40,250 bases of DNA, taken from positions 1-40,250 of the IMG/VR virus record IMGVR_UViG_3300032323_000975; one strand, given 5' to 3'. The DNA is from a virus. Shown piece after piece: positions 4,749 to 32,658 of the stretch (positions are counted from its first letter, which is position 1; each line of letters opens with the position of its first letter). The notes beneath the pieces were generated by a model. It had not been told where the DNA came from. It saw nothing but the letters and a program-made list of their open reading frames with translations, and ran no database searches. The position numbers and the translations under genes are program-made.

Positions 4749-6728
4749 TTACCTGCCAAGCAACCATGAAGGTCGCCACTGTCGGGGAGGAGCTTTCGCT
4801 TGTGTCAGGTTCGGCAGATTCAAAATCGCCATCCACAATGCCATCACAATGTCGGTGCCGTGCTTTTTGTCCCGTGACCACTTCGTTAACTCGTCTTGCG
4901 CCGCTAATGTTTTCCAGTTTCCACGCATAGATGGGAAACGGATAGCCCCAGATCGCACCACCGGTGGAATCAACGCTTCGACACCTAGTTTTTCGTCAAC
5001 TTTGTTGCGGCTTGTGGTGTGTGGGATGACGTTGACACGGTTCATGGCTTGCCAGCGACGCACAAAATCATGTGCCAACAGGAATCGTTGGGCGGCGTTG
5101 ATTTCGACAACCCAATGGGAGATGGGATAACCCATGTCGTAGGAGCGTTGCTGCCATTCGTGCATCAAACCTGAATATTCACTGGTTGTGGTGTTGAATC
5201 CAAGGACTTCTTCGGCGGATAATTTGACTCTCTCGATGTCCACCACATGATAGATTTGGGTTTCGGGCTGGAAAATAATCCACACGAAAGCCCAAAACAT
5301 TGTTGGTGACGGGTCAACTGCACAAATAGAAATCCACGGGTGCGACAAGCCTTCAGGGATATAACCTGGTTGGCGTTCGTTATCGACACAGCCAGGGTAT
5401 TCCACCCCATCCATCCCTTTACCACCGGTAATCCAAGTACGGTCCACCAGTCGGGCATCAAGGTCAAGGTCTTCTTGCTGATACACCACTTGGAACACGT
5501 CAGGTTTGTTGTAACGGATAAACGACAAGTCTTTCCACGGGAGACGTTTCGGATCTAGAAGCGGCCCGTCAGGATACGGCTGTGCTTTGAAAGACCGTGA
5601 CTCTTTCCCTGTGTCAAGTTCTTCGTAATACGCTTTGTAGATGATGTGCCTGTATTTTTTCTGTCGGACAGGTTGCCCTGCTTGGACATCTTCAGGGGTT
5701 TCCACATCAGAACCGTCATAGTTGATGTCTTCATCAATGTCGTAGGTTTCCTTAGCAAGACAATGGGCGTACAGATCGCCTGAACCAAGACGCTGACCGA
5801 CTACTGCTAAGAGTCCACCTGGGTCGCATCGGGCTTCAGCCACATTGTCCCACCGTTCAAGAAGCTTGTCCCTAGCCACACTTTCACGGGCGTTGTCGGG
5901 TGAGGCCACATCGTCAAAAAGGCAAAGGTCGGCACGGTGTCCGATGAACTCTGCTTCGATACCGTAGGCACGCACTGTTGGTTCTTTGTTGTCAAGCCCG
6001 TTACCGTCAAGTTGTTCAACGACAAATTCTTCGGACCGCCACAATGCACCTTTATCGACAGGTTTGAATCTTCCATAGTCAATTGTCAAACATCCTTCTG
6101 CGTTAACTGCCAATCCTTTTGCCACCATCATCGGGTCAGGCTCGATAGGCATCACACGCTCAAGCGTTTCACGGATACGGCGGGAATACATTTTCGCCAT
6201 GTTCTGTGAAACAGACCCGATCATTACACGGATACGCCGGTTACGAACAATCGCCCACACCGCAACATCATGGAACAATGTGGATTTGCCTGCACCTGGC
6301 GGAACGTTCAAACAAACAAATTCTTTTTCTTCCGACTCCAACAGTTTCACCAGTGTGATTGCTGCTTCTACCTGCCACGGGGAAGGGACACGGCCAAGAT
6401 AGTGGGTACGGAAAAAATCAAAATCTTCTAAGCCCCTTTTGGCGTTGTCGCATAACTGGTCGTGTGGGACAGCCGATGGAAGGTCAATGGCATCCATGAA
6501 GTTGTTATGTGCAACAGATTGCCTACCGCCAGATCCTGCACCTGAAGACACCTTATGTGCCGCTTCTTTACGGTTCGCTTCTAACAGTCGAGCCTTCTTC
6601 ACCCAACGTGAACCCGTGTTGTAATGCACACCAGTCTCAGCACACGCATCTTTGATGGTGCGCCCTGCTGCGACTAACGCAAAAAACTTTGCTTTGTCCT
6701 GAGGCGGGACAGCTCTTTTAGTTCCCAT
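4749..6728 (-). CDS. terL: Terminase large subunit with N-terminal helix-turn-helix (659 aa)
   Basis: This is the ATP-driven DNA packaging motor and headful or site nuclease. Visible are a Walker A motif PPGAGKST at residues 143-150 and a Walker B motif LCLFDD at 269-273. The C-terminal RNase H-like nuclease acids are probably D472 (AVDPSPT), E542 (VVEIN) and D626 (HGTDIVMALW). Residues 1-55 look like a helix-turn-helix (ACAETGVHYNTGSRWVKKA), a fold normally found in the small terminase. No separate small-terminase gene is visible, so the DNA-recognition role may be fused here. The start overlaps the methyltransferase end by 11 bases. Confidence 0.95.
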   Translation of the reverse strand: MGTKRAVPPQDKAKFFALVAAGRTIKDACAETGVHYNTGSRWVKKARLLEANRKEAAHKVSSGAGSGGRQSVAHNNFMDAIDLPSAVPHDQLCDNAKRGLEDFDFFRTHYLGRVPSPWQVEAAITLVKLLESEEKEFVCLNVPPGAGKSTLFHDVAVWAIVRNRRIRVMIGSVSQNMAKMYSRRIRETLERVMPIEPDPMMVAKGLAVNAEGCLTIDYGRFKPVDKGALWRSEEFVVEQLDGNGLDNKEPTVRAYGIEAEFIGHRADLCLFDDVASPDNARESVARDKLLERWDNVAEARCDPGGLLAVVGQRLGSGDLYAHCLAKETYDIDEDINYDGSDVETPEDVQAGQPVRQKKYRHIIYKAYYEELDTGKESRSFKAQPYPDGPLLDPKRLPWKDLSFIRYNKPDVFQVVYQQEDLDLDARLVDRTWITGGKGMDGVEYPGCVDNERQPGYIPEGLSHPWISICAVDPSPTMFWAFVWIIFQPETQIYHVVDIERVKLSAEEVLGFNTTTSEYSGLMHEWQQRSYDMGYPISHWVVEINAAQRFLLAHDFVRRWQAMNRVNVIPHTTSRNKVDEKLGVEALIPPVVRSGAIRFPSMRGNWKTLAAQDELTKWSRDKKHGTDIVMALWMAILNLPNLTQAKAPPRQWRPSWLLGR

Positions 6729-7185
6729 ACACCACTACAGCAGAAGGGAACGGGGCAGCGTTAGGTCCATCATTAAACTTTAACCTCCCACGAATAAAAC
6801 GGATATCAGAAGCAAATGGTATTACATAATCATGCCACCATGCCGTATCAGTACGTGCCGGTACAAGAGCAACAATGCCACACCCACGAACAGATTCCTG
6901 TGCTGCTTTAGCCATGAACTTGCCGATACCTCGACCATACGGCGGATTCATAAATACATACCCCCCCCCACAATCTTGCAACCAGTCTCGCACTAAACAA
7001 TCACGGCGTTCAAGATCTGGATGGTCAGGCCCATACCAGTTATCTGCTACAAGAGTTGACTCAGAAACAGCGCAAGCGTCTAACACAAAAGAAAACTCTG
7101 TATCAAGTTTCTTATAAAACGGTGTAGGAGTACGCCACGTCAAATCAATAGACGACAACGCCACACCAGAATAAAAGTTTTCCAT
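6718..7185 (-). CDS. Phage N6-adenine DNA methyltransferase (Dam-like, 155 aa)
   Basis: The protein contains the catalytic NPPY motif (FMNPPYGRG, residues 80-83) and an N-terminal segment LDACAVSEST that fits the S-adenosylmethionine-binding strand. Size and arrangement fit the phage Dam family. I placed the start at 7185 (MENFYSG), where a GGAGGGG ribosome site lies 2-3 bases upstream. An earlier in-frame start at 7212 lacks this. Placed just before the terminase, it could protect phage DNA from host restriction or mark a packaging site. Target sequence unknown. Confidence 0.88.
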   Translation of the reverse strand: MENFYSGVALSSIDLTWRTPTPFYKKLDTEFSFVLDACAVSESTLVADNWYGPDHPDLERRDCLVRDWLQDCGGGYVFMNPPYGRGIGKFMAKAAQESVRGCGIVALVPARTDTAWWHDYVIPFASDIRFIRGRLKFNDGPNAAPFPSAVVVYGN

Positions 7186-7205
7186 CACCCCTCCAGTAGC
7201 AGATC

Positions 7206-7457
7206 CTACCACTTAACTTTATTAGCCCAATACGCCGCAGACATCTTACCTTTAGCGATGTTCTTCGCATGACGAGCTTTGAACGCTTTATTACGGGCAG
7301 AACCATCCGGTGAACCCTGCACCCCTTGCTGACCAAACCTGATCAACTTCACAGTTGACCCCTCCTTAGCCAACACAGCATGAGACTTTTTTGCACCAGG
7401 AGTCCGTTTCGGTTTGTTATAACCAGCAAACTTCTCGCCTCGATACTCAATAGCCAT
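7206..7457 (-). CDS. Small basic DUF6321-like protein (83 aa)
   Basis: The product starts MAIEYRGEKFAGYNKPKRTP and contains the patterns KKSHAVLAKEG, KLIRFGQQG and FKARHAKNIAKGKMSAAYWA. I recognise these as a small conserved protein of many marine and freshwater phages (DUF6321 by memory). Function is unknown; the high Lys/Arg content suggests nucleic-acid or virion association. The ATG at 7457 is chosen because the family motif begins there. The frame extends upstream but that part shows no conservation. It has no ribosome site, and an extended -10 box lies 7 bases upstream, so a leaderless mRNA is possible. Confidence 0.85.
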   Translation of the reverse strand: MAIEYRGEKFAGYNKPKRTPGAKKSHAVLAKEGSTVKLIRFGQQGVQGSPDGSARNKAFKARHAKNIAKGKMSAAYWANKVKW

Positions 7458-7458
7458 G

Positions 7459-7486
7459 TTGCAAATAGTAACAGATGTGCTACACT
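7459..7486 (+). promoter_or_regulatory. Candidate rightward promoter TTGCAA-N16-TACACT
   Basis: The -35-like TTGCAA (7459-7464) is followed after 16 bases by TACACT (7481-7486), preceded by TGC, which makes an extended -10. It overlaps the leftward promoter. Its transcript would start near 7493, and no gene follows until 8347. Confidence 0.35.
7465..7473 (-). promoter_or_regulatory. Extended -10 promoter for leftward unit, leaderless start
   Basis: On the minus strand the sequence TGTTACTAT is an extended -10 (TGnTAnnnT). It is followed by 7 bases and then the ATG at 7457. Transcription would begin at or next to the start codon, as in the leaderless mRNAs common in actinobacteria. A -35 is poor at normal spacing (TTGCAG only at 20 bp). 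Confidence 0.5.
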
Positions 7487-7492
7487 CACACT

Positions 7493-7911
7493 GCAACAGA
7501 AAAGAACTCCCACGCTGGGAAGCGTCAGAGAGAGCAAGGCTGTACACCACTTGCACGGTGCGGGGCATTTCACACACGGAAACGTGGGTCGATGTTTCCT
7601 GCAACCAAGAAGTACCCAAGACCGAACCTTCCCCTGTTGCGTAAGAGAAACAAGCAGCGTGAACAAACGTCAACTGTTCGTGAAAGAAAAGACTTTCTGG
7701 TGTCGGCTAAAAGAAATTGGCTACGGCGACCAACCACAATCGTGGTGAACTGTGGGGGAAGACCATAACCGGAGACTAGATGATCAGCCACGCAGACCTT
7801 TTACTACCGCCCTTGCTTCGCTGCGGTTGGTCACACAGAAGACACGGCTAACGTCGAACCACCAGCTCGGCCCAGATGTCCACTTTTCTTTTTTGCCCTT
7901 TTTTCTTTTCC
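7493..7911 (+). ncRNA. Candidate structured non-coding RNA (unassigned)
   Basis: The stretch after the candidate promoter holds many short hairpins. They include ACGCT-GGGA-AGCGT at 7512-7525, CACG-GAAA-CGTG at 7575-7586 (both GNRA loops) and GGAAAC/GTTTCC at 7578-7599 (an alternative to the last). Others are GAAAG/CTTTC near 7682-7697, ACCAC-AATC-GTGGT near 7734-7747, and ACCGC/GCGGT near 7805-7827. It ends in T-rich tracts at 7883-7911. No known RNA family was identified and chance hairpins are possible. Confidence 0.3.
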
Positions 7912-8202
7912 AGCATTAAGCCCGCCACCTAGAGTGTTCAACCACCACACACAGTCACCAGACCAGACACCACACAAAAAGAGTGAGTCCGCAGCGATCC
8001 GCTAATACAGTACCCCCCTACCGGCGGGCCTCGGTACACCCCCAGTTGAGGGTCGCAAGCAGAAAATTACATAACAAGCATTATGGGCGGCGATAATCAC
8101 CACCGATCACGGGCTAGGCACCCCCACCCCCACCCCCCTACGGGCAGAAAAAAGACAGGGGTACGGTTGTCGAGTGACGTGGCCGGCGATCCGCCTTGAC
8201 TG

Positions 8203-8226
8203 TTGTCGAGTTGTCGAGTTGTCGAG
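8203..8226. repeat. Three tandem copies of 8-bp TTGTCGAG
   Basis: TTGTCGAG occurs head to tail at 8203-8210, 8211-8218 and 8219-8226, with a fourth isolated copy at 8167-8174. It lies about 50 bp upstream of the plus-strand promoter. The arrangement is like protein-binding iterons for a replication initiator or regulator. The binding partner is unknown. Confidence 0.85.
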
Positions 8227-8273
8227 TTGGTGGCCGTTCTCGATAGTGTGACGCATGTCACGTTGGTTAGTGC

Positions 8274-8303
8274 TTGACAAGTGTTAGACAGTTGCCCCAT
8301 AAT
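8274..8303 (+). promoter_or_regulatory. Sigma70-type promoter P1 of the plus-strand cluster
   Basis: A perfect -35 TTGACA (8274-8279) is followed by an 18-bp spacer and CATAAT (8298-8303). A very similar element occurs at 9071-9100. The predicted start is near 8310, 37 bases before the first gene. Confidence 0.8.
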
Positions 8304-8309
8304 CCCTGT

Positions 8310-8327
8310 GCCGGCATTTCTGCCGGC
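8310..8327 (+). other. Hairpin at the 5' end of the early transcript
   Basis: GCCGGCA (8310-8316), loop TTTC, and TGCCGGC (8321-8327) form a perfect 7-bp GC-rich stem that begins at about the predicted transcription start. It could protect the mRNA 5' end. It has no following T-run, so it is not a simple terminator. Confidence 0.55.
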
Positions 8328-8346
8328 CAACTAGAAAGGGGAAACT

Positions 8347-8661
8347 ATGAACACTGATGATCGCTATCGAGTAACGGTGTCGAGTGATTGGTTCCACATT
8401 TACGAGTCATCAGGCATGGCCGATGAGTTGATCAGTGATGGGTTAGTAATCGAAAAAGAAACTAAGACCCGCACTACTCTCAACCTGTCTGCCGGTCACC
8501 TACGTTTCTTTATTGACGACATCAACCGCAACGTCGAATGGTGCGAACTCGAGGCCAGCGATAAGGCACGGTGGATTAGGTCGCTTGCTCGATTCGAGAA
8601 CGCCGACCTAATCGAGGAACAATGGCAGCGTGACACCAACGGCGAATGGGGGTGTATCTAA
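8347..8661 (+). CDS. Hypothetical early protein (104 aa)
   Basis: This is the first gene of the rightward cluster, preceded by the strong ribosome site AGAAAGGGG, 5 bases from the ATG. The protein is acidic and soluble (MNTDDRYRVTVSSDWFHIYE start), with a mixed strand/helix character and a Trp-rich acidic C-terminus. No family was recognised. Being first behind promoter P1, it is likely made early and strongly. Its stop forms TAATG with the next gene. Confidence 0.8.
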   Translation: MNTDDRYRVTVSSDWFHIYESSGMADELISDGLVIEKETKTRTTLNLSAGHLRFFIDDINRNVEWCELEASDKARWIRSLARFENADLIEEQWQRDTNGEWGCI

Positions 8662-20097: not shown

Positions 20098-20328
20098 TCA
20101 ACGTGGGCGTGTGATGTGATCCTCAACTGTTGTTAAACGCTTCTCGATACGGTCAATCGCATCACGCATAGAAGTACCACCGTTGTTCTTCATGTTTGAT
20201 TCAACGTGTGTAACAGCGTGTTCGATTCGTTGCGCCCACTTAAACATTGGATACAACACTGCACGATGGATAACACCAAGAGCAGTGACAACAGCACCTG
20301 CTGTGATGATCCATTCTGCGACAGTCAT
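20098..20328 (-). CDS. Small membrane protein with coiled-coil tail, possible holin (76 aa)
   Basis: Residues 5-24 form one membrane helix (EWIITAGAVVTALGVIHRAV). A basic, then coiled-coil cytoplasmic tail follows (DAIDRIEKRLTTVEDHITRP). This one-TM-plus-coil design is common for actinophage holin or holin-like proteins. It is ATGA-coupled to a second tiny membrane protein after the endolysin. Confidence 0.7.
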   Translation of the reverse strand: MTVAEWIITAGAVVTALGVIHRAVLYPMFKWAQRIEHAVTHVESNMKNNGGTSMRDAIDRIEKRLTTVEDHITRPR

Positions 20329-20441
20329 CTGTCGTCTTTGTTGCTAATGCGAACAGCTTCGCCCCATGCCATCAACAGAAAGATGGAGATACCAAGGATT
20401 GCACCGATACTCATCCAGATCAGCGCACCCACAGTTCTCAT
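20325..20441 (-). CDS. 38-aa transmembrane microprotein, possible holin partner
   Basis: Hand-translated: MRTVGALIWMSIGAILGISI then FLLMAWGEAVRISNKDDR. One membrane helix with a short charged tail. It overlaps the endolysin stop (ATGA) and the next membrane gene (ATGA). Located exactly where holin or antiholin genes sit. Confidence 0.75.
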   Translation of the reverse strand: MRTVGALIWMSIGAILGISIFLLMAWGEAVRISNKDDR

Positions 20442-20965
20442 CCTGCTTTTTCAGCAGCCTGTAGTTCAGCCCATACTGCAGCGAACTTGTTTGGGTTGTC
20501 TGCCATAGCAGGTGACAGTTCAAAATGCAACCAACGCCCACCTCTGGAACCGGCGTTATCTTGGTCGTTATAAATCTTGACCGACTTCGGATCGGTACCT
20601 TCGCCACGGGAACAGCGATAGCCACGACCCCACCCAGGTTTTCCGTCTTCTTTGTCGGCATCAAAGGCATAATCATGTGCTTCTTCAAGCCCTAGTGCAG
20701 CACTGTTCTTCAACATGAAATGCCACAGTTCCATCGCCTTTGTGCGGTTACTGTACCCCAAGTCGCAGGCCCTGCCAGTGGCGTGGACTGATAGCCAGCG
20801 TGGGTCGCCCTTCTTGGCTTTTGGGTTGTTCATTGAACGGTTCACAAACCCACCAAGATTGGTCAATCCGTATTCCTTCATCGCCAACTGCATGAACTTC
20901 TTTGTGCCTGGTCGAAGACCTGTACGTGAAAGTCCGTCACTGTTACCTGTGTACTTGCGTGGCAT
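20438..20965 (-). CDS. Endolysin, peptidase M15 (D-Ala carboxypeptidase-like, 175 aa)
   Basis: Zinc ligands of the M15/VanY type: SVHATGRACDLGY (H61, D68) and WLHFEL (H147, E149). It would cleave peptide stems of host peptidoglycan. No separate wall-binding domain or signal peptide, so export relies on the holin. N-terminus MPRKYTGNSDGLSRTGLRPG is a short substrate arm. The stop overlaps the microprotein's ATG. Confidence 0.9.
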   Translation of the reverse strand: MPRKYTGNSDGLSRTGLRPGTKKFMQLAMKEYGLTNLGGFVNRSMNNPKAKKGDPRWLSVHATGRACDLGYSNRTKAMELWHFMLKNSAALGLEEAHDYAFDADKEDGKPGWGRGYRCSRGEGTDPKSVKIYNDQDNAGSRGGRWLHFELSPAMADNPNKFAAVWAELQAAEKAG

Positions 20966-21378
20966 TATGGCCTCCTAAGAGAGATTGACATTAGATCAAC
21001 AACAAAGAATATGAGACAGATTAGCAGAGATATAATCTGTAAAGCACCGGATAATGTAAGGATGACGATGATCATTCCTGCGAGTGTCCAAGCCGCACCC
21101 ATCAGGTGACGTACTAGACGGGACAGGACACGACGACGCAGGGAATGTGGGCCGTTACCGAGCAGACCGATGAGATGAGTCGAAGCGACTGGTTCTTCAG
21201 CGTCAAACACAACAACGATTTCGTTGTTCAGCAAAGCTTCTTCGCCTACCTCTACCCCGATGACAGATCTGGAGAACTCTGATACTGCAATGGCGTATTT
21301 CGGTAGGGCTTTGTCTTCTTCAAACACAATGTACGAGGTGGGTGCTTTGAAGACGCTACGAAGGAATCTCTCTATCAT
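20965..21378 (-). CDS. Membrane protein of the lysis cassette (137 aa)
   Basis: N-terminal soluble alpha/beta part (MIERFLRSVFKAPTSYIVFE), then a basic stretch (SLRRRVLSRLVRHLM) and two close membrane helices at the C-terminus (residues 97-134). No family recognised. Stop and start overlap its neighbours (4 bases with the PA14 gene). A role in holin-type lysis or envelope remodelling is by location. Confidence 0.78.
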   Translation of the reverse strand: MIERFLRSVFKAPTSYIVFEEDKALPKYAIAVSEFSRSVIGVEVGEEALLNNEIVVVFDAEEPVASTHLIGLLGNGPHSLRRRVLSRLVRHLMGAAWTLAGMIIVILTLSGALQIISLLICLIFFVVDLMSISLRRP

Positions 21379-22454
21379 CGTCTTCTCCCGTTTGTTGTAC
21401 TGCTTGTGGTGGATACCCCCGTGGCTGAGATTGTAGCAACAGCCGCTATTTGTACGATGGCAACTGCGACCACGGTTCGGCGTTGTTCTTCGGTGGCGGT
21501 GAGGGTGATTTGGATCGGCCCGATACCTACCTTGCGGGTATATGTTTTACCATTCTGATTCGTCGTCTCCTGAGTCGGGGCTATCGAGGTGCTGGTCGTC
21601 GTCTCTGTCGTCGTAGGAACGCTTAGAGATGCCTCTGAGACGGTTGTAGAGGTAGAACCAAGGATCGTCGTAAGGGTCGTAGTCGATGAAAGAGTCGATG
21701 TAGGTATCTGACGAGGCAGAGAAGTTGAAGATGATGACTCCGTAGAGGGTGACAGGCTCACCGGAATCGTCGAACTCGGCGGAGTCGTAGTCGGCTGGAG
21801 TGAAGTCGATGTCGTCGTGGGCGGGTCGGGCAGTGTCGTCGTAGTGCTGGACAATATCAGCGAACTGGTGGTAGATGGCTCTGTTGTAGGCGGCAGAGTG
21901 TTCATCGTCGTCGTGGTTGTCCATACCTCAACTGTACTAAAAGCAGATGCAGGGATTATCTCCCAAGTTTCGTCAAGCATCCAATACAGTTTCACCCACG
22001 CTGCCCCACCGTTCTCGTAGTACCACAACAACATTTGTTTTGGGACACCGTATTCAAACGACACAGGTTCACTGACTGTTCCACCGCCACCTTTATCAAA
22101 CCAGTCGTAAGTGACAAGGGTGTTGTCTAGATACAGAACAGTTCCGTCATCGGCTTGTGTCATGAACCTGACATCACATGTGCATGGTGCAGTGAGATAC
22201 GAGTCGTATCGGACAACGAAATCTTCATACATATTGAACAACGGTTGACGATCAAAGTTCTGATCAACTTGTGCAACTTGTGTCGTGCCAACTATCGGTG
22301 TTGTCGGCGGTAACGGCGGGGCGTTATTGAAACCACGGTTGTTGAAAACCGTGACCGTAATACCAGGGTTCGGTGTTGCTTCTGATGTGGCGGCGAGGAA
22401 TAAGACCGATACACCGATTAGCAGTAAAGCGTATTTAGCCTTCCGACTTGTCAC
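21375..22454 (-). CDS. PA14-domain, mucin-like, membrane-anchored surface protein (359 aa)
   Basis: Signal peptide or start anchor at residues 8-26 (ALLLIGVSVLFLAATSEATP). A PA14-like domain lies about 65-165 (VRFMTQADDGTVLYLDNTLV; then YENGGAAWVKLYW). A Ser/Thr/Pro-rich stalk (about 175-300) follows, then a C-terminal membrane helix (VAVAIVQIAAVATISATGV) and basic end (GRRR). This is the design of a surface-displayed adhesin. It could bind glycans on the host cell outside and affect attachment or superinfection. It lies between endolysin and holin-like genes. PA14 assignment is by pattern only. Confidence 0.8.
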   Translation of the reverse strand: MTSRKAKYALLLIGVSVLFLAATSEATPNPGITVTVFNNRGFNNAPPLPPTTPIVGTTQVAQVDQNFDRQPLFNMYEDFVVRYDSYLTAPCTCDVRFMTQADDGTVLYLDNTLVTYDWFDKGGGGTVSEPVSFEYGVPKQMLLWYYENGGAAWVKLYWMLDETWEIIPASAFSTVEVWTTTTTMNTLPPTTEPSTTSSLILSSTTTTLPDPPTTTSTSLQPTTTPPSSTIPVSLSPSTESSSSTSLPRQIPTSTLSSTTTLTTILGSTSTTVSEASLSVPTTTETTTSTSIAPTQETTNQNGKTYTRKVGIGPIQITLTATEEQRRTVVAVAIVQIAAVATISATGVSTTSSTTNGRRR

Positions 22455-22704
22455 GCTTCACACCGAAAGCAGCATCTACTTCGTGTGCTTCAAGCTTGCC
22501 ATCCAATGAGGCTTTGGCGAGGTTGACGAGAACATCTGCGATGGCGTGGAAACCACCGAGAGCAGCCGAGTACCACAGTGGGATTTGTACGTCGGTGCCT
22601 ACTGAGTTGATGATGCTGGAGCCTGTGATGATGGTAAGGCTCGACATGATGAACAGGGCCACGATTCGGGCTGATACATCTTTGGCAATCTTCAGTGACA
22701 ACAT
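22435..22704 (-). CDS. Holin-like membrane protein (89 aa)
   Basis: Hydrophobic segments at about 12-32 (ARIVALFIMSSLTIITGSSI) and 42-65, with a charged C-terminus (AHEVDAAFGVKRDKSEG), as in r1t-type phage holins. Preceded by GAGGAG six bases before the ATG. Overlaps the surface protein gene by 20 bases. Best holin candidate by sequence, though the 20098 and 20325 genes also fit. Confidence 0.7.
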   Translation of the reverse strand: MLSLKIAKDVSARIVALFIMSSLTIITGSSIINSVGTDVQIPLWYSAALGGFHAIADVLVNLAKASLDGKLEAHEVDAAFGVKRDKSEG

Positions 22705-27027: not shown

Positions 27028-28080
27028 TCATAGCCCATACCACCGTAGGTTGTTTCGTAGCCTCTCATCGGTGGGGTTGATGTCAACGGCGGCTTGACCG
27101 TATCGCTGTGCTTCATCCATGAACCCAAGATGGTAGGCGGAGATAGCCAGCAGATCATACGGGAGCCAACCCCAAGCTTCTGCTTCACATAGATAGTCGA
27201 GTGGTTTTTCTGTGATGGTGAACGCCATGTGACAGGTGTGGTAACAGGCCCGCCAATCTTCAATGTCGTAGTAGTGCTTTGCTAAATCAACCCATGATTC
27301 ACGTCTGCCACGGTCTTCAGCGATGGCACGGTACAGGTGGAACTCACGGGCTTGTGGTCGCATCTTGGCGATATACCGGTGTGACGCTGCCCGTTCAGGG
27401 TTCCACATAGACAGGTCTAGGTGGTGCATGAAATGGTATTGGGCTAGTTCGTATTGTCCGTTGAAGAAGTATTCACGGGCTAGGTAGAACTGGTTGCGGT
27501 CATCACGGGGGTCTTCTTCGACTGCGAGTTTCAACAGGTCAAAGTATTGTCCACGGGATTTTGTTGGATCTGGGTGGTGGTGGATTTCTAGCCCGTCAAC
27601 CCAATGTTGCTTCTCGATGATTTCAGGTTTGATGACTTCGTGTACGGGGTGTTTCCATGTGTAGCCGTGGCGGGCGTGGATTTTGTCGCCACCATAAACC
27701 AAGCCTTCGGATCCGTCAGGGTTCCATGACCACACGTATTTGTAACGGGGTCGGGTCGTGCCAGCAGGGATGGCTTCTAGGGCTTCACGCCAACCTGGTT
27801 GTAGGACTTCATCCATGTCTAGGGCGATACAGATGTCAATATCTGCGGGGAGTATTTGCAGGGCATGGTTGCGGGCTGTGTCAAAACGCCACGGGTTGAA
27901 AATGCCTTCGTGGATTTTGACTCCACAGATGTTGGCTAGGTCGACTGTTCTGTCTGTTGAACCGGTATCTAGGATCAGTCGATAGTCAGCTTCGGCACAA
28001 GATTCGGCCCAACGTGCCACGAACTGTTCTTCGTTTTTAGCGATGGTATAAACCGCAATCTTTATTCTTCCATCAACCAT
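27028..28080 (-). CDS. GT2 glycosyltransferase with C-terminal TPR-like helices (350 aa)
   Basis: N-terminal GT2 (GT-A fold): YTIAKNEEQFVARWAESC, ILDTGSTDRT and a DxD-like ALDMDEVLQPGW. Residues about 190-345 are helical repeats (LAREYFFNGQYELAQYHFMH; AISAYHLGFMDEAQRYGQAA) like TPR. The family is common in aquatic phages. It transfers a sugar, perhaps to virion fibres or host surface; acceptor unknown. Overlaps the 358-aa gene by 19 bases. Confidence 0.9.
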   Translation of the reverse strand: MVDGRIKIAVYTIAKNEEQFVARWAESCAEADYRLILDTGSTDRTVDLANICGVKIHEGIFNPWRFDTARNHALQILPADIDICIALDMDEVLQPGWREALEAIPAGTTRPRYKYVWSWNPDGSEGLVYGGDKIHARHGYTWKHPVHEVIKPEIIEKQHWVDGLEIHHHPDPTKSRGQYFDLLKLAVEEDPRDDRNQFYLAREYFFNGQYELAQYHFMHHLDLSMWNPERAASHRYIAKMRPQAREFHLYRAIAEDRGRRESWVDLAKHYYDIEDWRACYHTCHMAFTITEKPLDYLCEAEAWGWLPYDLLAISAYHLGFMDEAQRYGQAAVDINPTDERLRNNLRWYGL

Positions 28081-29138: not shown

Positions 29139-30179
29139 TTATGCACCGTAATATTGGAAACGAATAAGACCTGCTGTTCCGTTTCCTTGAACGGATCCTC
29201 CTGAACCAAAACCATAAAACCCTCCTGCGCTGCCATGCTGACTGTTCCAGTCGCTAGTGCCACCACCACCTGCGCCACCATTGTAACCGTAAGCTTGACC
29301 ACCACTACCGCCATTTCCGCCGATTGCGCCAACAGAAGCATTTGCAGTTGCATTACCGCCACCACCGTTGATGCCTGCGCCGCCACCGCCAGCAGTGTAA
29401 GTAAATGGCACCTTGCCACCAGTGTCAGTGAATGAAGCACCTGCTCCACCGCCATAACCAGGGTTATCGCCATAGCCAACATTGCCGCCGTTAAGACCGC
29501 CAGTAGAAAGACCGCCAGTACCACCACCAGAATCAATCGAAGAAAAGTTGGATGCTGTTATTTGGGTTGTACCGCCTGTGCCACCTGTACCACCGATAGA
29601 AACGCCACCGCCACCGCCAACAACCAGTGTTAGTTGCGTATTACTGGTATTGGTGAAAGCCCGTGAAGAAACCAATCTGTAGCCACCTCCTGCACCACCG
29701 CCGAATGTTCCTGCTCCACCACCACCGCCCAAAATAAACACATTGAGAATAGACGGGACTACGGTTGACCCGCCAGTTGGGGTGACTGTTGGGATTGTTA
29801 AAGAGTAACTGCCTGCTGTGCCGTTGGCGTACTCAATCAATCGCCATGTAGTAAAAGACAAAGACGAAGACGTTGCGGTGCCTACTGTGTTTGATACGAC
29901 ACAACGGAAATGATAAGTCGTGTTCACGGCAAGACCGGTGATGTTGGCGTAAGACGAAACAGATTGACCGTTAATTGGGGTTGTGGCGGCATTGACTTCT
30001 GTAAAGGTACTGAAGTCTGATGCGGTGCTGTACTGGAACTTAACCGTTGTTGAGTAACCGTTGGTGGTTACGGTTGCGTTTAGCGTGGCTAGTTCTTGGT
30101 TGAAGTTGCTCGCTGCGTTAAGCGTAACTGTTGGGGGTAACGCTACAGACGATGCAACAATCCCATGTCTGATCGCCAT
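29139..30179 (-). CDS. FN3 plus polyglycine tail adhesin (346 aa)
   Basis: Residues about 15-112 read like a fibronectin-III domain (TTVKFQYSTASDFSTFTEVN; YHFRCVVSNTVGTATSSSLS). Residues about 150-345 are glycine-rich (ILGGGGGAGTFGGGAGGGYR and similar), ending FQYYGA. Glycine-rich regions of this kind form polyglycine-helix adhesins in phage tail tips (compare T-even gp38). Probable receptor-binding protein. TAATG with the collagen gene. Confidence 0.82.
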   Translation of the reverse strand: MAIRHGIVASSVALPPTVTLNAASNFNQELATLNATVTTNGYSTTVKFQYSTASDFSTFTEVNAATTPINGQSVSSYANITGLAVNTTYHFRCVVSNTVGTATSSSLSFTTWRLIEYANGTAGSYSLTIPTVTPTGGSTVVPSILNVFILGGGGGAGTFGGGAGGGYRLVSSRAFTNTSNTQLTLVVGGGGGVSIGGTGGTGGTTQITASNFSSIDSGGGTGGLSTGGLNGGNVGYGDNPGYGGGAGASFTDTGGKVPFTYTAGGGGAGINGGGGNATANASVGAIGGNGGSGGQAYGYNGGAGGGGTSDWNSQHGSAGGFYGFGSGGSVQGNGTAGLIRFQYYGA

Positions 30180-31225
30180 TACGCACTCAAATCCCCGATA
30201 AGAAGATAGTTGTTTGTTGAAACGCAGAACAGGGTGGCAGCCGAATATCTAGCCCGAAGTTTCTTACCAGGCGTAGCGTTCAAAGTAACGCCAGATTCTG
30301 ACACCGTTACCTGACCTGCTCCTAACTGCGCCAAGTCAATAGCCTGCCCTGCCGTCAACCCTGTTGTGCCGTTCACCGTCACCGTAATAGCCGAACCATT
30401 ATCTAAAGTCACCATCTTTCCAGCATCACTAGAAACAAGCGTGTAGGTAGTACCTGTTTGGGTGTTGATGGTTTGGGCATTAGAAAATGTGCCTGTCGTA
30501 CCAGTAGGACCTGTCGGTCCAGTAGGCCCTGTTGCACCGTCAGCACCAGCAGGACCAGTAGCACCAGCAGGACCCGTCGCACCCGTAGGACCAGTCGGAC
30601 CAGTTACCGTCGAAGCCGCACCCGTCGCACCAGTCGGCCCTGTGGGACCAACGTCTCCCTGAAGTCCCGTTGCACCAGTAGGTCCAGTAGGACCAGTCGA
30701 TCCTTGGATGCCAGTCGCACCAGTAGGTCCCGTTGGACCCGTGTTTCCGATAGAGCCTGTTGCACCAGTAGGCCCTGTTGCACCAACTGCTCCCGTAGGT
30801 CCCGTAGGTCCAGTATCACCCGTTGCGCCAGTTGCGCCTGTAGATCCTGTGGGACCTGTGGCTCCGGTTGGACCTGTTGCGCCTTGGATACCTTGCGCTC
30901 CGGTTGGACCTGTCGGGCCTGTCGGACCCGTGGCTCCTTGCGAACCTGTGGCTCCTGTCGGGCCTGTCGCCCCTTGGCTACCTTGCGATCCTGTCGGTCC
31001 TGTGACACCTTGTACCCCTTGTGGTCCAGTCGGGCCAGTAGGACCTTGCGCCCCCTGTGGACCCGAATTGCTTGTAGTAACAACAGTAACAACTGCCGCC
31101 ACCGAAGAAGAAGATACCGCAGGAACAACAACAGAACCAACCGATGCGTCGCTACGAGTAACTGTTATCTCATAACTAGCAGGTGAAGCACTCCCACGAT
31201 TAACCGTGATGTTCGTTGTTGCCAT
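30179..31225 (-). CDS. Collagen-like fibre protein (348 aa)
   Basis: Residues 55-246 are continuous Gly-X-Y triplets (64 triplets, mostly GPTG and GAT/GPQ). They would form a triple-helical rod. The N-terminus (residues 1-54) is beta-rich for attachment, and the C-terminal 102 residues ([20 protein letters not shown]) are a beta head probably for trimerisation. Bacterial-type collagens lack hydroxyproline; thread stability depends on charge and Thr/Pro. It probably extends the tail fibre. Confidence 0.95.
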
Positions 31226-31578: not shown

Positions 31579-32658
31579 TTACACTAGATAGCCTGCGTCG
31601 TTCAGGACTCGTTTCACATCCTCAGACACCCAATAGGTTTCGCCAGGCAGGAACTCGTATTGGGTTTTAGCAATATTGCAGGACACCCGCCGTTTGACCT
31701 GTACATCAAAATTCACAATGGCAGGAACCACCGCCGTGTCAGGTAGTAACTCCCCAACAGGCACAGCATCCAGCAAGGCTTTAGCGGCTTTCCGCCATGT
31801 GAACGCCGATGCCCCACGGGAGTTGACAACAGCTTCCGCCTGATGGGTTGACCAGTTTCGATAGTGATCAAGCATCAGTTCAGCCAACGCATCCACATCA
31901 GGTTCATCCCACTGCCCAATCGTTTTAGCAGGAGCCTTCACTGTGGGTACAACACCTGTGGCTAGATACGAGAACTCTTGATGCCCTGTCGAGTCAGACA
32001 CGATAGTTGGCATCCCTAGCGAGATTGCTTGCAACGGCATCAACCCGAACCCTTCACCACGGCTAGGAGCCACAAACACATGACCCTGTTTGAACCAGTC
32101 TTTCTGTGTTTCCAGATCCATCCACCGGCGATGCAACACAACCCTTGGGTCTTTCACATCAGGGGTGTCACGGGCGTGAGGTGCCGCTTTGATATGCAAC
32201 TCAACATCAGGTAAATCCAGTTTCAGAAACGCCTGCACCACCACGTCTAAACCTTTACGGAACCACAGCGACCCGCCAGCAAGAAACCTGAACGGCCCAT
32301 CAGGTGCGGTGTAGCCAGACCAAAACTTTGTGTCCACACCCAACTGCACCTTGCTTACATTGTCGTGATACCTACTGAACAGTTCAACATTATGGTCGCA
32401 AGGAACAATAATCTGGTCATACAGGGGAAGCCAACGAACAAAAGATTCAGGCAACACATCCGTTTCCCACATCGTAAAACACACCCGATGCTGACCATCC
32501 AGCCAAGACTCCTTCACATTCGGGACATTCATAAAAACATCCACCGAAGCCTGACCATTCAACTCGACAGTCTTAGGGACACCCGACTTGAAACCAGCCA
32601 ACATAGACCCGTACCCGTACTTCGGATCGTCAACCCCTTGCCAAGATTGAAAGTTCAC
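31579..32658 (-). CDS. GT4 glycosyltransferase (359 aa, GTG start)
   Basis: GT-B fold: GGSLWFRKGLDVVVQAFLKL near the UDP-sugar site and SRGEGFGLMPLQAISLGMPT then IVSDSTGHQEFS, the usual donor-binding motif of GT4. The C-terminus adds a small beta domain (YEFLPGETYWVSEDVKRVLN) of unknown role. GTG at 32658 overlaps the upstream stop (GTGA). It may decorate the fibres made from adjacent genes. Confidence 0.92.
   Translation of the reverse strand: MNFQSWQGVDDPKYGYGSMLAGFKSGVPKTVELNGQASVDVFMNVPNVKESWLDGQHRVCFTMWETDVLPESFVRWLPLYDQIIVPCDHNVELFSRYHDNVSKVQLGVDTKFWSGYTAPDGPFRFLAGGSLWFRKGLDVVVQAFLKLDLPDVELHIKAAPHARDTPDVKDPRVVLHRRWMDLETQKDWFKQGHVFVAPSRGEGFGLMPLQAISLGMPTIVSDSTGHQEFSYLATGVVPTVKAPAKTIGQWDEPDVDALAELMLDHYRNWSTHQAEAVVNSRGASAFTWRKAAKALLDAVPVGELLPDTAVVPAIVNFDVQVKRRVSCNIAKTQYEFLPGETYWVSEDVKRVLNDAGYLV

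Follow-up and report, generated by a model that had tools for sequence, protein, structure and literature searches.

A modular, putatively membrane-anchored PA14 protein of a phage lysis operon, with a probable second gene inside its stalk

The window analysed here is the whole stretch of 40,250 nucleotides (positions 1 to 40,250) of the IMG/VR virus record IMGVR_UViG_3300032323_000975. On its minus strand lies a gene for a predicted surface protein, set among genes for small membrane proteins and an endolysin-like protein. The preliminary description had placed this open reading frame exactly, without giving the strand. The features of the locus are as follows.

22435–22704, minus strand: TM89, a small membrane protein encoded upstream of the surface protein, possible holin
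21375–22454, minus strand: surface protein gene, 359 aa, GTG start (open reading frame, Pfam PA14, position and sequence conserved in many phages)
22377–22454, minus strand: signal peptide, residues 1–26 (hydropathy, SEA cleavage site)
21930–22370, minus strand: PA14 domain, residues about 29–175 (Pfam PF07691, AlphaFold2, Foldseek)
22146–22151, minus strand: Asp102-Asp103, putative DcisD Ca2+ ligands
22011–22019, minus strand: Tyr146-Glu-Asn148, candidate second Ca2+-binding loop (Y/F-x-N)
21555–21920, minus strand: Ser/Thr/Pro-rich stalk, residues 179–300, very probably dual-coding (composition, pLDDT, dS)
21547–21924, minus strand: predicted overlapping gene for an acidic protein of 125 aa (calculated pI about 4), +2 frame, ATG start, wholly within the surface-protein gene
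21414–21476, minus strand: C-terminal hydrophobic anchor, residues about 327–347, followed by a short tail ending RRR (hydropathy)
20965–21378, minus strand: TM137, membrane partner (overlap with the surface gene, family alignment)
20438–20965, minus strand: endolysin-like protein, 175 aa (M15-type motif SVHATGRACD...WLHFEL, by inspection)
20098–20328, minus strand: TM76, a small membrane protein ending the cassette (PHROG membrane-protein/tail matches, conserved order)

In the surface protein, a signal peptide leads into a PA14 domain, which a Ser/Thr stalk connects to a hydrophobic C-terminal segment with an RRR end; the preliminary description had proposed these four parts, and hydropathy, Pfam, AlphaFold2 and composition confirm them. 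The N-terminus has a positive n-region, a hydrophobic core (ALLLIGVSVLFL) and the small-x-Ala site SEA, and motif inspection finds a site of this kind in all relatives with a complete N-terminus. Both the signal peptide and the TM segment are assigned by hydropathy and motif alone; the best 19-residue window of the anchor reaches 2.06 on the Kyte-Doolittle scale, and a C-terminal end of the type RR/RK-hydrophobic-basic is kept among the relatives. The Pfam match to PF07691 covers residues 29–159 (27.9 bits against a cut-off of 24, E 2.4e-6; 29.3 bits in a second search). Structure prediction, which had been suggested as a check, returns the PA14 fold: from a nine-sequence alignment, AlphaFold2 gives a confident beta-sandwich for residues 81–170 (pLDDT about 83–93) and a disordered stalk (pLDDT < 50). 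Compared with solved PA14 domains by Foldseek, the model matches RsgI-type sensors, a Marinomonas PA14 lectin, anthrax protective antigen and the yeast Epa and Flo adhesins (E 1.5e-9 to 1e-6, probability 1.00), while the closest solved sequences are PA14 domains of the RsgI3 type (E 1e-15). Between relatives, dN/dS of the PA14 domain is 0.10–0.13, which shows that the surface gene is real and under selection. The stalk (composition taken over residues 179–305) is 57% Ser and Thr (72/127) and 12% Pro.

In PA14 lectins, Ca2+ is bound by two consecutive cis aspartates (DcisD) and an Asn of a second loop; in Cea1A the ligands are D191-D192 and N257, and F255 precedes the Asn by two positions (PMC6218569, PMC8092209). 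The motifs ADDG and YENGG, which comprise D102-D103 and Y146-x-N148 of the surface protein, are invariant in 38 of 38 nonredundant phage relatives, and the spacing of Tyr146-x-Asn148 is that of Phe255-x-Asn257 in Cea1A. The two consecutive Asp and the second-loop Asn of a DcisD-type lectin are thus present, with a presumed cis peptide, and these residues support a predicted Ca2+-dependent glycan binding by the PA14 domain. Display on the host surface, as had been suggested, agrees with the secreted, membrane-anchored, stalked and outward-facing design and with the lectin-type Ca2+ site; the localisation itself we infer.

Most near relatives whose sequence extends far enough have the same gene order, namely fibre, TM89, surface protein, TM137, endolysin and TM76. 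Translational overlaps connect the genes, with 20 nt shared by TM89 and the surface gene, an ATGA between the surface gene and TM137, and a TAATG between TM137 and the endolysin-like gene. Few proteins of the cassette are as conserved as TM89, which is 86–99% identical in most loci that have it. It matches PHROG 26427 (E 1.3e-18), labelled as a nuclease family; since TM89 is small and hydrophobic, we do not accept this label, which looks like a mislabel. TM89 also carries an EF-hand-like D-G-x-L-x-x-x-E stretch. The endolysin-like protein has no match in Pfam or NCBIfam, and the same slot in related phages is occupied by a Pfam VanY peptidase (E 2.6e-17). A search of the window for RNA families found none.

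The C-terminal part of TM137 is a two-helix WTLAG...TLSG domain that adjoins, or is fused to, nearly every family member. All 78 nonredundant members with downstream sequence have a two-helix partner, which is adjacent in 67, fused in 7 and a divergent two-helix protein in 4. An apparent absence of TM137 from some phages was rejected, as the partner there is a short or fused version. TM137 matches no holin family, its hits in Pfam and NCBIfam being all sub-threshold (the best being TraQ), and the 57-aa form of the partner has no match in either database. In 57 of 72 members, the start of an M15/VanY-type gene lies no more than 2.5 kb downstream, and in 54 no more than 700 bp, as compared with 7% for random positions in the same loci. 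The constant presence of the partner, together with the proximity of the endolysin, identifies the protein as a surface protein of a late lysis operon.

Contrary to the earlier suggestion that such a combination of parts is rare in phages, the family is widespread in uncultured environmental phages. The proposed search for relatives gave 57 viral loci with the PA14 alignment and at least 486 candidate stretches with the C-terminal domain, and the family is thus large, unannotated and modular, and present in hundreds of environmental phage contigs. When 77 proteins recovered through the C-terminal domain were clustered by their N-terminal regions, six clusters resulted, one of which is a contig-end fragment. 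PA14 is the second commonest of these regions. The commonest has a high-confidence predicted structure resembling a PPC (pre-peptidase C-terminal)/collagen-binding sandwich, and is also found in the close relatives L013 and L014, where the N-terminal region is exchanged and the stalk, anchor and partner are retained. Among sequenced phages, tblastn found no relative of the surface protein, and the C-terminal domain was matched only by DSL-LC01 (L017, OQ999401.1), in which the locus 5817–8651 encodes a 944-aa hypothetical protein, WJZ48438.1, that is a fused family member; fusion of the partner to the surface protein occurs in other phages as well. The DSL-LC01 genome was assembled from Dishui Lake metagenome data and has Actinomycetia as its predicted host (PMC10611076), and a term search of that paper finds no mention of PA14. 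Host homologues, which the preliminary description had proposed to look for, did not emerge when bacterial and archaeal genomes were scanned using the PA14 alignment, where the single match was a Corallococcus PA14 domain at 30% that we treat as unrelated. Based on distant kinship to Streptomyces phages and on the host predicted for DSL-LC01, the host is probably actinobacterial.

The stalk very probably encodes a second protein. Over six pairs formed by the window gene, L002, L003 and L005, dS is 0.36–2.1 in the PA14 domain and 0.09–0.73 in the C-terminal part, compared with 0.05–0.17 in the stalk, where the excess of third-position changes vanishes; both effects can be ascribed to the second open reading frame at 21547–21924. 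This frame is kept in 22 nested alleles, whether the ectodomain is PA14 or PPC-like and with either C-terminal type, and its start codon is at the matching place. Free-standing homologues are found in six related loci (L143, L188, L189, L190, L192 and L195), where they either follow the partner gene directly or overlap with its end, and a profile built from nested sequences only detects them with E values of 3.9e-32 to 1.5e-20 (hhalign 99.8%). Changes at codon positions 1/2/3 of the stalk number 15/63/33 in eight nested pairs and 95/83/264 in seven control stalk pairs (Fisher p 1.2e-13, for pairs of related sequences that are not fully independent). In the overlap region, L013 and L014 differ at seven positions, all seven silent in the nested frame and all seven replacing stalk residues. 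The ratio of NAC to NAT codons is 44:6 in the nested frame versus 488:253 in the other genes of the window (p 9e-4); nested Asp, Tyr, His and Asn codons ending in C give Thr in the stalk, so that the stalk frame is also constrained. Purifying selection in both frames and a homologue outside the overlap, as expected of same-strand overlapping genes, are thus both observed.

The nested product has no match in Pfam or NCBIfam and no credible match in PHROG. It has a conserved core, FA.IVQHYDDTARPxHDDID, and starts with MDNHDDD, which is no signal sequence; the acidic 125-aa protein would probably be cytosolic. A reading of the nested frame as an untranslated by-product of Thr codons has to be considered, because Thr ACN reads as NAC in the +2 frame and open frames rich in Asp, Tyr, His and Asn arise easily. 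In addition, 7.3% of synonymous shuffles give an open frame as long as the nested one, so length alone is not exceptional, and no Shine-Dalgarno sequence was found at the nested ATG. This explanation is nevertheless very unlikely given the conserved nested start, the reversed codon-position pattern in nested stalks and the homologues that exist outside any stalk. Stalk dS is by itself no proof, as a control group (L042-L039) has low stalk dS without a nested frame, and ectodomain recombination may inflate dS in the PA14 part. Hence, the codon-position bias and the free-standing homologues carry the claim, and on these grounds we regard the 125-aa frame as a protein-coding gene with high confidence. 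With the start lacking a Shine-Dalgarno sequence, the length of the frame unexceptional and dS subject to these caveats, translation of the nested gene is something we only infer.

In PA14-type alleles, stop codons shortly before the nested ATG make access to the nested frame by frameshifting unlikely. About 13–18 nt upstream of this ATG (about 21935–21942 in the window), nearly all nested alleles have a TAGTAC or AGTAC motif; it is shared despite different ectodomains, contains a nested-frame stop in most of these alleles, and could be either a signal or a chance effect of Ser-Thr codons. In a rough tree, the free-standing forms fall in two places, and either the nested or the free-standing version may be ancestral. 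A review of viral overlaps points out that disorder of one product relieves constraint (PMC8227390), and the mucin-like stalk fits this view well: low complexity constrains composition more than exact sequence, which makes the stalk a tolerant site for an overlapping gene.

The two glycosyltransferases of the phage are of Pfam types GT2 and GT4, encoded at 27028–28080 and 31579–32658. Glycosylation of the stalk by these two enzymes had been proposed, but as a general requirement it lacks support: homologues occur in only 9 and 6 of the 25 family-carrying records compared, many of which are fragments. Enzymes of the host or the phage could still glycosylate the stalk. The product of 31579–32658 (minus strand) matches Pfam 'GT4-conflict' (E 2.2e-12), whose name refers to biological conflict systems. 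A collagen-like protein with GPTGPTG repeats is encoded in the virion region (30179–31225, minus strand), near both glycosyltransferase genes.

The preliminary account did not include TM137 as a partner, the setting in a lysis operon, the exchange of ectodomains or the gene overlapping the stalk. The domains, fold, operon, partner, module swaps and selection in both frames come from computation, and we give an even chance to the joint explanation of a late lysis-operon surface lectin with a second gene within its stalk. The surface protein would be a type I membrane protein, made together with the holin-like and endolysin genes and exported via its signal peptide, and its C-terminal helix and the two-helix partner TM137 would hold it in the cytoplasmic membrane. 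A Ca2+-dependent PA14 lectin would then be borne on a disordered Thr/Ser stalk long enough to span an actinobacterial wall. At the end of infection, such a lectin may bind surface glycans of the infected cell and mask receptors, so that neither competing phages nor the phage's own progeny would be lost on the dying cell or its debris. We put forward this late masking role, on the cell or its debris, only tentatively. Genes for superinfection exclusion are usually expressed early, and the position of the surface gene in a late operon counts against a masking role of that type.

The same architecture may also serve the clumping, superinfection block or spread suggested earlier, and further roles can be envisaged for it. 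In a device of the lysis stage, the partner would be holin- or antiholin-like, with the stalked lectin as an extracellular part that tethers the membrane to the wall or outer glycans; in a variant, sugars outside the cell would gate lysis through the lectin. The obligate partner and its fusions, the position of the surface gene and partner directly before the endolysin, and the translational overlaps in the cassette all fit such a device. It comes close behind masking, though somewhat unlikely: the very different N-terminal regions on one scaffold are better explained by varied ligands, the partner matches no holin family, and some family members are not near a recognised endolysin. Slightly less probable, and likewise a close rival, is that infected cells use the lectin to attach to uninfected neighbours or to particles, which would provide denser targets around the burst. 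The yeast flocculins and Epa adhesins, with PA14, Ser/Thr stalk and membrane anchor arranged in the same order, would be in line with such tethering, and phage-coded lectins have been proposed as aids to host adhesion (PMC12911398). We also consider it doubtful that the operon is a module for glycan-gated lysis or host-surface control, in which the ectodomain, the partner and the cytosolic nested protein act together. The exchangeable ectodomain would sense or bind outside glycans and the two-helix partner would relay this to the membrane; if so, one stretch of DNA would encode both an outside arm and an inside regulator. A virion protein, either a tail fibre or a head decoration, is highly improbable. 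The surface gene does come after the tail and fibre genes, and PA14 domains are found in annotated phage proteins, but the signal peptide, the C-terminal anchor and the obligate membrane partner fit the envelope and not a tailed virion assembled in the cytoplasm, and the conserved placement in the lysis operon likewise argues against this assignment.

The family appears built for the surface of infected aquatic, probably actinobacterial, cells, combining exchangeable ligand domains with one scaffold and an obligate membrane partner. This raises the testable question of how these phages act on the cell surface before lysis. The locus also illustrates clearly how a disordered, mucin-like stalk can house a second gene. 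As nested and free-standing versions exist in related phages, sequence comparison can trace the history of the overlap; of the two overlapping genes, standard gene callers may report just one.

As for known systems, the yeast flocculins and Epa adhesins (PA14/Flo5-like) share with the surface protein a secretion signal, a PA14 lectin with a DcisD and Asn Ca2+ site, a stalk of Ser/Thr type and attachment to the membrane at the C-terminus. Unlike these adhesins, the protein described here is encoded by a phage, replaces the GPI anchor by a bacterial-type TM segment with a two-helix partner as a separate protein, and has a stalk whose DNA very probably also encodes a second protein. The close sequence kinship and GPI anchor of the fungal PA14/Flo5 family are not found, the similarity being distant and at the level of the fold, and the surface protein is thus like a flocculin in its order of parts, not by kinship. 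MpPA14, a Ca2+ lectin domain of an RTX adhesin, and RsgI3 of Clostridium share the PA14 fold, but anchoring and context differ, and the phage protein has no cytoplasmic sigma-factor-binding domain. WJZ48438.1 of DSL-LC01 has a signal peptide, Thr stalks, the YVPxGS...RR C-terminal domain and the two-helix TLSG domain; it differs in the fused partner and in having no recognised PA14 domain, and represents one of many N-terminal versions. The spanins, such as lambda Rz/Rz1 and the unimolecular T1-type spanin, are also envelope proteins of lysis cassettes, and Rz/Rz1 includes a second gene embedded in another frame. Spanins are defined by a lipobox cysteine in the o-spanin or u-spanin (PMC6139136). 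The signal peptide of the surface protein ends in SEA/TPNPG without a Cys, its ectodomain is a predicted lectin, the nested product is acidic and starts without a signal, and the host is probably monoderm; an identity as spanin was rejected. Ltp-type superinfection-exclusion proteins (lipoproteins of temperate phages, PMC3952083) are likewise phage-coded and exposed on the host surface, but the surface protein is a predicted TM-anchored lectin in a lysis operon, and the absence of a lipobox sets it apart from Ltp as well as from spanins. It is best classified as a phage-borne, modular, membrane-anchored lectin of a lysis operon with an overlapping stalk gene.
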